Shown here: piece after piece, positions 12,449-18,958 of the stretch
Layout of the letters: each line of letters begins with the position of its first letter
Position numbering within the stretch: the stretch's first letter is position 1
Source of the DNA: an uncultured Caryophanales bacterium
Lineage (GTDB): Bacteria; Bacillota_I; Bacilli_A; RF39; UBA660
Length of the DNA stretch: 32,607 nt
Direction: 5' to 3'
Assembly (NCBI GenBank): GCA_946611235.1
Contig: CAMODE010000012.1
Location: 1 to 32,607 of the forward strand
Position numbers and translations under genes: made by a program
The notes under the pieces: model-generated
What the model saw: only the letters and a program-made list of their open reading frames with translations
Databases searched by the model: none
What the model was told of the DNA's origin: nothing

Positions 12449-14092
12449 CTATTTTAATTTTTCTATTCTACTTATTATTCTATCTTTTCCTAGTAATTTC
12501 ATTATTTCATATAGATCAGGAGTCATACTCTTAGAGGTTATTGCTACTCTAAGTACAGTAGACACGTCTGCTACTGAACCTTTATAGTTATCAGGATTTT
12601 CTTTATAATCTTTCATATTACTAGCATATCCTAAGTTATCACATAACTCTTTAATATTATTAAACCATACTTCTTTATCAGATATATCATAATATTTATC
12701 CATATATAGATTTAATATTTTATTTATTTCATCCTTATCCGTAATGCTACCCCAGTCATAACTAGAAGGATTATATAACTCATCATACATATAAAATATT
12801 TGATTTTTTATCTCACTATAACAAGAATAATCTTTTCTTGGTTTCTTTTGCTCTCTTTCAATATTTAGAACATTCTTTGTATAATCTTCATACTTAGTAA
12901 TTAATTCATTAAACTCTTTATCATAATCTTTAGTCCAATTATATAAGTTATCATATACTTCATCTTTAGTCATTTTACTTATAACTGTCTTAGCAATATT
13001 ATCCAATTTCTCTAAATCAAAGAAAGCTCCTGATGAACTCATCTTTTTAGGGCTATATACAAAGTCGGTAAATTCTTTATCACTATTAGCAGTATGCCAC
13101 TCTTCATAATTAGAATTAATAATAGTCATTAATGCTTCAATAACAGCTTTAACTGGATAACCTTTTTCTTTATAATAAGTCATCGATGCTTCTGGATCTT
13201 TTCTCTTACTTATCTTTCTAACACTAGTTCCTTCTTTTTTTATAATTAATGGAGTATGAACATATTTAGGAGGTTTAAAACCAAAAGTTCTAAATAATTC
13301 GATATGTTTAGGTACTGATGATAACCATTCTTCTCCTCTTACAACATGAGTAGTATGCATTAAATAGTCATCTACTAGATGAGCAAAATGATATGTTGGT
13401 AGACCATCACCTGATTTCATAATAACAAAATCTTCATCGTTTTCCGGTAGTTCTATCTTACCTTTTACTAAGTCTTCAAAAACAAACTTCTTATTAAAGT
13501 CTCCCATACTTTTAAATCTAATTACATAAGGAATACCTTCTTTTACTTTAGAAATAAGTTCCTCTACTGGTACATTTCTATATTTAGCATAACTTCCATA
13601 ATAACCAGTCCTTACTTTACTTCTTTCCTGGACTTCTCTCATTTCATCTAATTCTTCTTTAGTACAAAAGCAAGGATATGCTCTTCCTATTTCAATTAAA
13701 TATTTAATAAAAGCATGATATATTTCTTTTCTTTCACTTTGAACATATGGTCCATAACTACCTACAATATTTCCTTCAAATTCATACTCATCAGGTATAA
13801 TATTATAGTGAGTTAAAGTATCCATAATTAACTTAGTAGCCTCTTTTACTTCTCTCTTCGTATCAGTATCTTCATTTCTTAAAAAGAATACTCCATTAGA
13901 ATTCTTAGCAAGTACATAATCAATAATAGCTTGATAAAAGCCTCCTAGATGCATATATCCTGTAGGACTAGGAGCAAATCTCGTTACTTTTTCTCCTTCT
14001 TTTAAATTTCTTTCAGGATACATTTCTTCATAATCTTTTATAGTTTTAGTAATACTAGGAAATAGAAGATCCGCTAAATCTTTATTTGTCAT
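12449..14092 (-). CDS. gltX: Glutamyl-tRNA synthetase
   Basis: RFAPSPTGYMHLGG, FLRNEDTDTKRE and KISKRKDPEAS motifs; start MTNKDLAD preferred over upstream MIY. Confidence 0.95.
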   Translation of the reverse strand: MTNKDLADLLFPSITKTIKDYEEMYPERNLKEGEKVTRFAPSPTGYMHLGGFYQAIIDYVLAKNSNGVFFLRNEDTDTKREVKEATKLIMDTLTHYNIIPDEYEFEGNIVGSYGPYVQSERKEIYHAFIKYLIEIGRAYPCFCTKEELDEMREVQERSKVRTGYYGSYAKYRNVPVEELISKVKEGIPYVIRFKSMGDFNKKFVFEDLVKGKIELPENDEDFVIMKSGDGLPTYHFAHLVDDYLMHTTHVVRGEEWLSSVPKHIELFRTFGFKPPKYVHTPLIIKKEGTSVRKISKRKDPEASMTYYKEKGYPVKAVIEALMTIINSNYEEWHTANSDKEFTDFVYSPKKMSSSGAFFDLEKLDNIAKTVISKMTKDEVYDNLYNWTKDYDKEFNELITKYEDYTKNVLNIEREQKKPRKDYSCYSEIKNQIFYMYDELYNPSSYDWGSITDKDEINKILNLYMDKYYDISDKEVWFNNIKELCDNLGYASNMKDYKENPDNYKGSVADVSTVLRVAITSKSMTPDLYEIMKLLGKDRIISRIEKLK

Positions 14093-14110
14093 ATAAATCA
14101 CAACCTTTCT

Positions 14111-14623
14111 TTATACTAATACTTTATTATATTCTTTAGATTTTTCTTCAAGTAAAATAAAATTACAACATCTATCTTTTACATTTTTAGGAAGTTTATC
14201 TTCTTTGTATAATAAATATAATGCTCTTGCTTTAGTTCTAATTATTTTTCTATTAGATGTTAACCATCTTAACTGACTACGAAGCAGTTTTATTCTTAAC
14301 ATTTCATCTTTATCAGTATAATTCTTATCCAAATCATACTCTGCATAATTATTATTTGTAACTGGAATCATATTATTAAAATTAATTACACCCAAATTAC
14401 CATCATCTATTTTAACTAAATCAAGAGTATTTTTTAAATATTTATGTTTAGGTTTAGGACTAGATAAAAGTGCAAAATACTCTTTATCTTCTACCATAAA
14501 TAATACTCCAATAAATGGTCTTAATTCTTTAATACCAGCATTATATGATACCCTATTATCATACTTTCTAAGATAATTACAGTAATTATAATCTACTTTT
14601 ACAATTTTAAAACTTTTAAACAT
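14111..14623 (-). CDS. toxN: Type III toxin-antitoxin endoribonuclease, ToxN/AbiQ family
   Basis: YLRKYDNRVSYN, RPFIGVLFMVEDKEYFALLSSPKPKHKYLKNTLDLVKIDDGNLGVINFNNMIPV are characteristic ToxN/AbiQ blocks; preceded by RNA repeats and a terminator. Confidence 0.9.
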   Translation of the reverse strand: MFKSFKIVKVDYNYCNYLRKYDNRVSYNAGIKELRPFIGVLFMVEDKEYFALLSSPKPKHKYLKNTLDLVKIDDGNLGVINFNNMIPVTNNNYAEYDLDKNYTDKDEMLRIKLLRSQLRWLTSNRKIIRTKARALYLLYKEDKLPKNVKDRCCNFILLEEKSKEYNKVLV

Positions 14624-14710
14624 ATTACCCGCTCCCTTTTATTTAATAATTGATGTTTATTATATATGAATAGTTAAAACCTGCCAATATATTTTAAACA
14701 TTAAATAAAA

Positions 14711-14734
14711 GGATTAGAGTGTGCTCTCTAATCC
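14711..14734 (-). terminator. Attenuating terminator between ToxI repeats and toxN
   Basis: 9-bp perfect stem GGATTAGAG/CTCTAATCC, 6-nt loop, followed by TTTTATTT on minus. Confidence 0.85.
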
Positions 14735-14819
14735 ACTTTTTTAATTGCCATTTAGAGCTGGCTTCACTCACTTTTTTAATTGCCATTTATTTTAGGCTGG
14801 CTTCACCCGCTTTTTTTAC
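14734..14819 (-). ncRNA. toxI: ToxI-like type III antitoxin RNA repeats (2 full units plus partial)
   Basis: Units 14734-14768 (35 nt) and 14769-14807 (39 nt) share GTGAAGCCAGC...TAAATGGCAATTAAAAAAGTG on minus; third partial unit AAAAAAAGCG at 14808-14817. Confidence 0.8.
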
Positions 14820-14820
14820 T

Positions 14821-14862
14821 ATGTATACTATATACATGTGAAACGAAATAATTTCCTTTCAC
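14821..14862 (-). promoter_or_regulatory. Two adjacent palindromes in the ToxI promoter region
   Basis: ATGTATA-CTA-TATACAT (14821-14837) and GTGAAACGAAA-TAA-TTTCCTTTCAC (14838-14862, one mismatch). Confidence 0.55.
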
Positions 14863-14904
14863 GTTTAATAATATATCATAAATATTATTATTTGTCTATA
14901 ATTT

Positions 14905-16062
14905 TTATTTATCTTTTATAAATTTATTAAGTTCTTTTTTTAATACTTTACCACTTAATAATTCATCTTTAGTAATGCCTACTACTTCAAAAGAATCAAT
15001 TGACTTAGTTCTTGGATAATTAACAAGAACAGTATTAAAATTTTTCATAAATTCTTTAGGATCTTGTAAATAATTATGATATAAGGATATTGCAATTATT
15101 TTTCCAATATAATATATAATTGGATCCCTAAAGCGAATCTTATCTTTATAGTTTGGTAAATCTCTATAATAATTTAACTCTTCTTTTTTCTTTTCTGCAT
15201 TATCCATTGCCTTTTCATCATCTAAGCATATTTCTCCATTATCATTAATAACTCTGTTCTTCATAGAACTAATAATACTAGAAGAAAAGGCATCATTAAA
15301 TAATTCTATATAGAAAACATTTAGTTCGTTATTAATTTCTTTTTGATAAAGATTATTATCTTTGATATATTTTAAGAATGAATATTCAAAGAATGAAGAA
15401 ACTACTTCAGAAAAAATAGTACTTCCTTTATCAAACAAATCTCTTTTATAGTATAAATAACTCTCATATGCATGGCCTAATTCATGGGCTAGAGATGATG
15501 CAAAATATAAATCTTGTGGAAGATTGTTATTTATTAAAATAATGTTTTTCTTTATTAAATCAAAAGGAAATAATAATCCTGAATAATTGGCTTCAAATGG
15601 TTCAATATACAAATTGTCTTTATTAAATGATTTAATAAATTTTTCGATGTTGTCATCTCCAAAGTCTAGATAAAATTCTTTAACTAAGCTGATAATTCTA
15701 TCTAGTGGTAAATAATTGCAAATATGGTAATTCTTATAAAAAGGATATTTTATATTTTTAAAATTATTTATTGTATTTCTAGATAATTTACTAATTAATG
15801 ACATATTGTCATCAGCATTTTTACAAAACATATTAAATATATTCTCAATATCATATTCTAGTTTTATATCTTTAATCCAATCTCCTGACAAATCTCCAAA
15901 TGAAAAAAAGTCTTCTGAACATATATGATCAAGAATAGATATTGAACTTAGTAATCTATCTCTTTTGGATTTGGTATTTGCTTTAGAGTATAAATAATTT
16001 AATTTCTGATAGTAATTTTTCATATCTTTTTTTATTTCATTTATTGTTTTTAATTCTTCCAT
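14905..16062 (-). CDS. M3-like zinc metallopeptidase (oligoendopeptidase F-like)
   Basis: HELGHAYESYLYY zinc motif followed by STIFSEVVSSFFEY. Confidence 0.75.
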   Translation of the reverse strand: MEELKTINEIKKDMKNYYQKLNYLYSKANTKSKRDRLLSSISILDHICSEDFFSFGDLSGDWIKDIKLEYDIENIFNMFCKNADDNMSLISKLSRNTINNFKNIKYPFYKNYHICNYLPLDRIISLVKEFYLDFGDDNIEKFIKSFNKDNLYIEPFEANYSGLLFPFDLIKKNIILINNNLPQDLYFASSLAHELGHAYESYLYYKRDLFDKGSTIFSEVVSSFFEYSFLKYIKDNNLYQKEINNELNVFYIELFNDAFSSSIISSMKNRVINDNGEICLDDEKAMDNAEKKKEELNYYRDLPNYKDKIRFRDPIIYYIGKIIAISLYHNYLQDPKEFMKNFNTVLVNYPRTKSIDSFEVVGITKDELLSGKVLKKELNKFIKDK

Positions 16063-17295: not shown

Positions 17296-18297
17296 CTAAT
17301 TTAATTTTTTAACACTTAAAGTAGCATTAACTCCAGAACTTAGAGATACTCCTACTGCTAGTAATGCAGTCATGGCAAGATCTATTACTGCTCCTGCTGG
17401 TAGTGTTACGATAACACTACCACTATAGATAGAACCTACTCCTACAGATAATGCTCTTGATATTACAGTTGATGGTATATTTGTACCATTACTTCTAACA
17501 GCCATTGTAATAGTTGTAGCTGCTGCTGCAGTCATATTACTATAGTAATTAATTTCATATGTACCTGCTTGAGTTACAGTAATAGCATTAGCTGTAGCAT
17601 ATGTAGTATTTAAGTTTGGCATAGTTTCATTAAGTGGTATTTGAGTTGCAGTTCCTATAGATATACTTATTGTTTGCGCACCAGTATTATATCTACCACC
17701 ATAAGCATTTAATCCACCTGTTGGTCCTGTTGGTCCCGTTGGACCTGTTGCACCTATCAATCCTTGGGGTCCTGTTGCTCCGGTTGGACCTGTAGCGCCT
17801 ATTAATCCTTGTGGGCCTGTTGCTCCTGTTGGTCCTGTAGCGCCTATTAATCCTTGAGGTCCTGTTGCTCCTGTTGGACCTGTAACTCCTATTAATCCTT
17901 GAGGTCCTGTTGCTCCTGTTGGACCAGTAGCTCCTGCTAATCCTTGAGGTCCTGTTGCTCCCGTCGGACCTGTTGCTCCTACTAATCCTTGAGGTCCTGT
18001 TGCTCCCGTTGGACCAGTAGCACCCACTAATCCTTGTGGACCTGTTGCTCCGGTTGCGCCAGTAGCTCCTGCTAATCCTTGAGGTCCTATTGCTCCTGTT
18101 GGACCAGTTGCACCTATTAATCCTTGTGGGCCTGTGACTCCGGTTGGACCAGTTGCACCTATTAATCCTTGTGGGCCTGTTGCTCCAGTTGGACCAGTAG
18201 TTCCTGCTATTCCCTGAGGTCCTGTTGCTCCTGTTGGACCGGTAGGACCTTGTGGGATAACAAAATTTAATAAATAATCAGCATTTATAATTATCAT
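17296..18297 (-). CDS. Collagen-like protein with C-terminal BclA/TNF-like beta domain
   Basis: About 11 GPQGL(I/V/A)GATGPTGAT units, then [24 protein letters not shown]...[13 protein letters not shown]. Confidence 0.9.
17728..18222 (-). repeat. About 11 tandem 45-bp (15-aa) collagen repeats
   Basis: Repeated [15 protein letters not shown] codon units in the ORF. Confidence 0.85.
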
Positions 18298-18311
18298 TCC
18301 CTTCTTTTTTT

Positions 18312-18536
18312 TTAACCATTTATTGGTGTTATTGTCACACTAGCTGTTGTTCCTGGTTCACCAGTTGTTACTGTCCCTATTTGTAAAGTTGGTGCTGGAC
18401 CTGTTGCCCCCGTTGCACCTGTTTCTCCTTGCAATCCTTGGGGCCCAGTAGCACCTTCCAATCCCTGTGGCCCAGTTGGGCCTGTGGGGCCTTGTGGGAT
18501 AACAAAGTCTAGTATGTAACCTGTATTTTCATTCAT
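18312..18536 (-). CDS. Short collagen-like protein
   Basis: [25 protein letters not shown]... ending [34 protein letters not shown]. Confidence 0.75.
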
Positions 18537-18553
18537 TTTTTTTACACTTCCTT

Positions 18554-18958
18554 TTAAACTTCAGTAATAGTAACTTCTGCTTCAGAACCAGGAGCACCTG
18601 TTGTTACTGTCCCTATAGCAAAAGTTGGTGATTCTCCAGTTGGACCTGTGGCTCCTGTTGGACCAGTAGCTCCTGCTATTCCTTGAGGTCCTGTTGGGCC
18701 TGTGGCTCCTACTTCACCTGCTATTCCTTGAGGTCCTGTTGGGCCTGTGGCTCCTACTTCACCTGCTATTCCTTGAGGTCCTGTTGGGCCTGTGGCTCCT
18801 ACTTCACCTGGTATTCCTTGAGGTCCCGTTGGTCCTGTTGGACCACCCGAGGGGCCTGTAGGTCCAGTAGGTCCTGTCTGTCCAATTATAATTGGAAATG
18901 GCCCTGGTAGTATTGGGCATTCATTATTATCATTATTCATACAACAATTATGTTTCAT
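18554..18958 (-). CDS. Collagen-like protein with Cys/Asn-rich N-terminus
   Basis: [35 protein letters not shown]; tandem [31 protein letters not shown]. Confidence 0.85.

Follow-up and report, generated by a model that had tools for sequence, protein, structure and literature searches.

Does the short repeated sequence on the minus strand ahead of a ToxN/AbiQ-like gene encode an RNA antitoxin in this uncultured Bacilli-like bacterium? A sequence-only reading of the window (the whole stretch of DNA analysed here, 32,607 nt) had proposed an unannotated ToxI-type antitoxin, and our analysis supports this proposal. Because candidate promoter, repeats, terminator and toxN follow one another in this order, the toxin belongs to the matching family, the stems covary and the repeat type agrees with the ToxN clade, the locus is very probably (about 93%, judging from sequence comparison) a chromosomal type III toxin-antitoxin system of the ToxIN family. 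Four of the features by which type III systems are recognised were found, namely a ToxN/AbiQ-family toxin, short repeats arranged in tandem ahead of its gene, covarying H-type pseudoknots and a Rho-independent terminator separating the array from toxN.

The positions of these features are given in Table 1. The minus-strand sequence that had been quoted for 14711-14820 matched the actual letters, and the interleaved stems described there (GRGU with GCYY and GCCA with UGGC) were located in both units. In unit 2, stem 1 (S1) is GAGU:GCUC (14769-14766/14758-14755) and stem 2 (S2) is GCCA:UGGC (14762-14759/14750-14747). Unit 1 has GGGU:GCCU as S1 (14808-14805/14797-14794), with two G-U wobbles among the four pairs, and again GCCA:UGGC as S2 (14801-14798/14785-14782). 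The S1 changes claimed between the units, A-U to G-C and G-C to G-U, are both real; together with a four-base loop insertion, the stem-1 changes make up the main differences between two units that keep S1, S2 and the A tracts. The span proposed as antitoxin had to be narrowed, the units being retained while 14711-14734 is a terminator hairpin and not antitoxin. As for unit lengths, 35 nt stands, and 39 nt holds with an A6 tract but becomes 40 nt with the A7 tract. The A6-7 tracts, which had been likened to ToxN cleavage sites, do fit the ToxN_Bt cut, AAA|AA (PMC8860590). The A6-GTG stretch ahead of the terminator, identical in L036 and L041, is presumed to be the 3' cleavage site of unit 2.

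Table 1. Features of the ToxIN locus (positions in the window) and related promoters in the family.
Feature	Position	Strand	Description
Candidate antitoxin-transcript promoter	14870..14898	(-)	TAGACA, 17 nt, TATATT, extended -10; 10/12 consensus matches
Leader, two hairpins	14821..14862	(-)	GUGAAA..UUUCAC; AUGUAUA-UAG-UAUACAU; -13.2 kcal/mol, z -4.7
ToxI-type unit 1	14778..14817	(-)	40 nt with A7 tract (39 with A6); model R1 E=4.3e-9
ToxI-type unit 2	14743..14777	(-)	35 nt; model R1 E=1.7e-14
Partial third unit A6-GTG	14734..14742	(-)	last G opens terminator stem
Intrinsic terminator	14711..14734	(-)	GGATTAGAG-AGCACA-CTCTAATCC then TTTTATTT; 9 pairs; -12.5 kcal/mol, z -5.0
Possible second promoter before toxN	14659..14687	(-)	TTGGCA, 17 nt, TATAAT; 11/12 consensus matches; lead only
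toxN	14111..14623	(-)	170 aa endoribonuclease toxin; Leu52 replaces invariant Pro
LexA/DinR-like box promoters between terminator and toxN			loci L053, L039, L050, L055, L033, L042, L045, L007, L013, L043

The toxN product matched the Pfam ToxN family (PF13958) over the full profile length (E=3e-41) and the PADLOC AbiQ model (5.3e-32), and no NCBIfam model matched it. Its best match in the PDB was 4ato (ToxN_Bt, 2.4e-15), followed by ToxN_Pa and ToxN_Ec (3e-11 and 3e-10), and a search found no relatives of the toxin in viral contigs. With residue roles taken from PMC8860590, the active-site residues R35, S54, S55, K57 and Q117 were present, R35 corresponding to K33 in Pa and to R in some E. 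coli clusters. The catalytic positions of ToxN (K33R, T52S, S53, K55, Q117) are kept or conservatively replaced, and Pro50 is changed: codon 52 (window 14468-14470, minus strand) encodes Leu. The equivalent residue is Pro in 57/57 aligned relatives, the sister locus L002 included, as well as in ToxN_Pa, ToxN_Bt and ToxN_Ec; in ToxN_Ec it belongs to the strand on which the catalytic Thr and Ser are reported to lie (PMC8860590). The window comes from one MAG-type assembly, and Leu52 is possibly a single-base sequencing or assembly error. Since Leu52 adjoins the active site and the array is one unit short, this ToxIN copy may be weakened.

We looked at the same locus across the bacterial family. 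ToxN was found in 58 of 291 same-family genomes and in 0 of 14 control genomes. The upstream plan of the relatives is promoter, leader, units, terminator and toxN, the arrays usually holding three units of about 33-38 nt that each begin with an A tract, and the terminator stems are often CTAGAG or TTAGAG with the complement. Homologous loci lacking the repeats had been named as the observation that would speak against an antitoxin; every same-family ToxN with a complete upstream region had at least one unit-like repeat, and three distant loci (L004-L006) showed no obvious unit array upstream. Units were counted by eye from the sequences, and arrays at contig ends (L010, L043, L046, L082, L101, L102) were excluded from the counts of short or orphan arrays. 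Among 49 intact-toxN loci with a complete array, 38 had three units, six had two and two had one, which makes the array of the window shorter than usual. At eight loci, toxN is broken by frameshift or truncation (L084-L088, L047, L051, L056), and most of these arrays have one or two units: at least three units were present in 2/8 of the broken loci versus 41/49 of the intact ones (p=0.002, with relatedness uncorrected). Within the genus of the window, G295, whose flanks are about 92% identical, keeps the terminator and three units, whereas of toxN just the final codons remain before gltX; stem 1 of its middle unit contains an A-C mismatch, and the internal A tracts of this array are interrupted (TATAAAAG). 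Two other genomes of the genus, G140 and G244, have neither the peptidase nor ToxIN ahead of gltX. Because G295 has lost toxN, G140 and G244 are without the locus and the window carries Leu52, the ToxIN locus is, as far as these genomes tell, an accessory insertion, which some members of the genus have lost or carry in damaged form.

The same observations bear on a second reading, according to which the locus is a decaying ToxIN whose toxin was weakened or killed by Pro52Leu, and whose array is a remnant after the loss of one unit. It draws on the replacement of a Pro that lies next to the catalytic strand (PMC8860590) and is kept even in the sister protein, on the same-genus G295, where nearly all of toxN is gone and three units are kept, and on the lower unit numbers at broken loci. 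However, the toxN reading frame is intact across the whole domain, the remaining active-site residues are all kept, both units retain S1, S2 and the A tracts, and two units also accompany an intact toxN at five other loci (L013, L029, L034, L040, L052). We hold decay to be possible rather than probable.

The sequences flanking the array were compared in the same way. Relatives have promoter-like sequence in the same position upstream of their arrays as the candidate promoter of the window, although the promoter scan that yielded this candidate gives equal numbers in shuffled sequence. Their leaders carry small hairpins at the equivalent place, of other sequence (e.g. GCTACTTAGTAGC, by eye). 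For the second promoter, promoter-like sites were no commoner than in shuffles. The toxN stop lies 18 nt ahead of the gltX start (window 14092-14111) with no terminator between them, and the toxN-gltX junction is the same in the near relative L002. This short gap, and the G295 array that now stands directly before gltX, would agree with repeats and hairpins that regulate toxN and its neighbour gltX in cis, as a leader, and are not a trans-acting antitoxin. We consider this very improbable, as a strong terminator follows the array, the array travels with toxN across many contexts, the unit type tracks the ToxN sequence, and the A tracts and pseudoknots match ToxI with no match to regulatory RNA families.

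Some neighbouring genes deserve mention. Transcription of the toxin operon may extend into gltX, an essential gene. The protein encoded at 14905-16062 (minus strand) has 385 aa and contains the zinc-peptidase-like motif HELGHAYE; it is accessory (4/11 genus genomes), and at the default threshold neither Pfam nor NCBIfam models matched it. Two proteins with long collagen-like repeats, resembling by eye the spore-surface protein BclA, are encoded at 17296-18958 (minus strand).

The case for ToxI rests on comparison across genomes, because the pseudoknot evidence from single units is modest (6/300 and 14/300 shuffles formed equally good pseudoknots) and ordinary minimum-energy folding of single units, which is blind to the pseudoknot and uninformative, was unremarkable. 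A covariance model built from 20 relatives, the window excluded, matched both units with the E-values of Table 1, the next best match within the 32.6 kb having E=5.9. In a structure-blind MAFFT alignment of 53 distinct family units (A1), the interleaved stems were paired in 86% of cells versus 70% when shuffled, and much of the remaining unpaired loss came from rows shifted by one base in stem 2. Double-changed (compensatory) cells numbered 76, versus 21 in shuffled alignments and 23 in the best slid version, and the covariation score was 0.464 versus 0.197 shuffled and at most 0.143 slid. Shuffling does not remove relatedness; sliding keeps relatedness, and the stems still stood far above it. 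When the alignment was made of window-like units (A2), 98% of cells were paired and four pairs were changed on both sides, and unit L049b showed a compensatory S2 change from C-G to U-A. Repeat type changed five times along the ToxN tree (minimum possible 4, shuffled mean 22), and repeat type tracking toxin phylogeny is reported for type III systems generally (PMC5086642). The claim that the antitoxin is unannotated was borne out for Rfam 15, where no antitoxin family matched the window or 15 related loci at the gathering threshold; a permissive threshold gave implausible sub-threshold matches only, which were dismissed. That the repeats are chance low-complexity sequence beside toxN, as the A+T-rich region and the unremarkable folding scores of single units might suggest, has a negligible probability and is refuted by the two model matches and the strong covariation.

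Taking the window locus as ToxIN, its mode of action can be modelled on the solved ToxIN systems, which are the source for cleavage, ring and release (PMC5086642, PMC8860590) and likewise for growth arrest and phage defence, while locus order, toxin family and covarying pseudoknot come from the present analysis. The transcript would start at about 14863 on the minus strand and carry the two ToxI units, each predicted to fold into an H-type pseudoknot with A-rich tails. By analogy, ToxN would cleave the A6-7 tracts, freeing single units that may hold it inactive in a closed ToxN-ToxI ring, each unit bridging two toxins. The terminator would leave antitoxin RNA in excess of the toxN message, and a drop in ToxI supply, for instance upon phage transcription shut-off, could release ToxN to cut RNAs. 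As antiQ is functional with 1.8 repeats, two units and a tail lie within the working range reported for antiQ (PMC5086642).

Among known type III systems, ToxIN_Bt from Bacillus thuringiensis pAW63 (PDB 4ATO) has the closest solved toxin by score, and resembles the window locus in its 34-nt repeats, its A-rich cut and its order of promoter (in the window a candidate one), repeats, terminator and toxin (PMC5086642, PMC8860590). It is plasmid-borne with 2.9 repeats, whereas the window locus is chromosomal, lies between the peptidase-like gene and gltX, and has two units with a tail and a diverged toxin. AbiQ/antiQ from Lactococcus lactis pSRQ900 is alike in its 35-nt repeats, its short array (2.8) and the PADLOC AbiQ match; it differs in residing on a phage-defence plasmid, and the solved AbiQ chain was absent among the PDB sequence matches of the window toxin. 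ToxIN_Pa and ToxIN_Ec have toxins of the same family and repeats of comparable length that form H-type pseudoknots, but their arrays are longer (5.5 and ~4.6 units) and are cut at AA|AU and GAA|AU (PMC5086642, PMC8860590). CptIN and TenpIN have the same general locus order, but the window toxin had no sequence match to solved CptN and matched the Pfam ToxN family instead. Altogether, the comparison confirms that an uncultured lineage outside Rfam coverage has a ToxIN branch whose repeats are of a type of their own, with GCCA:UGGC as second stem, and the dozens of covarying units collected here could serve to build an Rfam model. ToxIN systems as such are known; the more novel leads, which may surprise a specialist, are the arrays without toxin and the toxN promoters with LexA-like boxes described below.

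Orphan arrays were sought by running two unit models against the family genomes and then inspecting the surroundings of the matches. Downstream toxN was missing behind twelve arrays, each with two or three units, one in the genus of the window (L071, G295:C9) and eleven elsewhere in the family (L074, L075, L076, L077, L083, L089, L094, L095, L096, L097, L098). Lone R1 matches in L080, L081, L090, L091 and L092 lay in unrelated sequence with no array and were rejected as spurious. Most orphan arrays retain the promoter-like sequence, the A tracts and the terminator, and the downstream genes vary. In L074, two units have CAGU:GCUG and the third CGGU:GCCG, a compensatory difference. The decay order, toxin first, is as addiction predicts. 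ToxI arrays might also outlive the toxin as stand-alone RNAs, retained because they protect the cell by neutralising either a ToxN brought in by plasmids or phages (anti-addiction) or one whose gene lies at another place in the genome; we regard this idea as rather unlikely, and the fate of an RNA antitoxin after toxin loss has become testable. Our search of open-access text found no literature on orphan ToxI, and orphan antitoxins of other types have been described. To our knowledge, published surveys begin from the toxin and would miss toxin-less arrays. About 250 nt past the orphan array of L076, a protein resembling the Abi_2/AbiF group by eye suggests a defence neighbourhood.

Finally, at ten loci of the family, the window not among them, toxN is closely preceded by a sigma-70-like promoter that contains an AAC-N4-GTT box with at most one mismatch in six (Table 1), versus 0.4 by dinucleotide shuffling (maximum 3). 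This promoter-plus-box count supersedes a count of bare boxes, which was confounded by terminator stems (AACTCTAGTT). In the window, the promoter-like site of toxN carries no LexA-like box, and no LexA match was found in its own genome. A review describes type III operons as transcribed from a single promoter (PMC5086642), and among the papers covered by our literature search none dealt with a type III toxin controlled by LexA. Whether some systems so far described as single-promoter have their toxin under SOS control can now be tested. The box promoter was also present in L024 and in the orphan L089. Similar boxes were found ahead of lexA and recA in most genomes checked, and G256 has one and the same box sequence (CGAACGTATGTTTA) before toxN and before recA.
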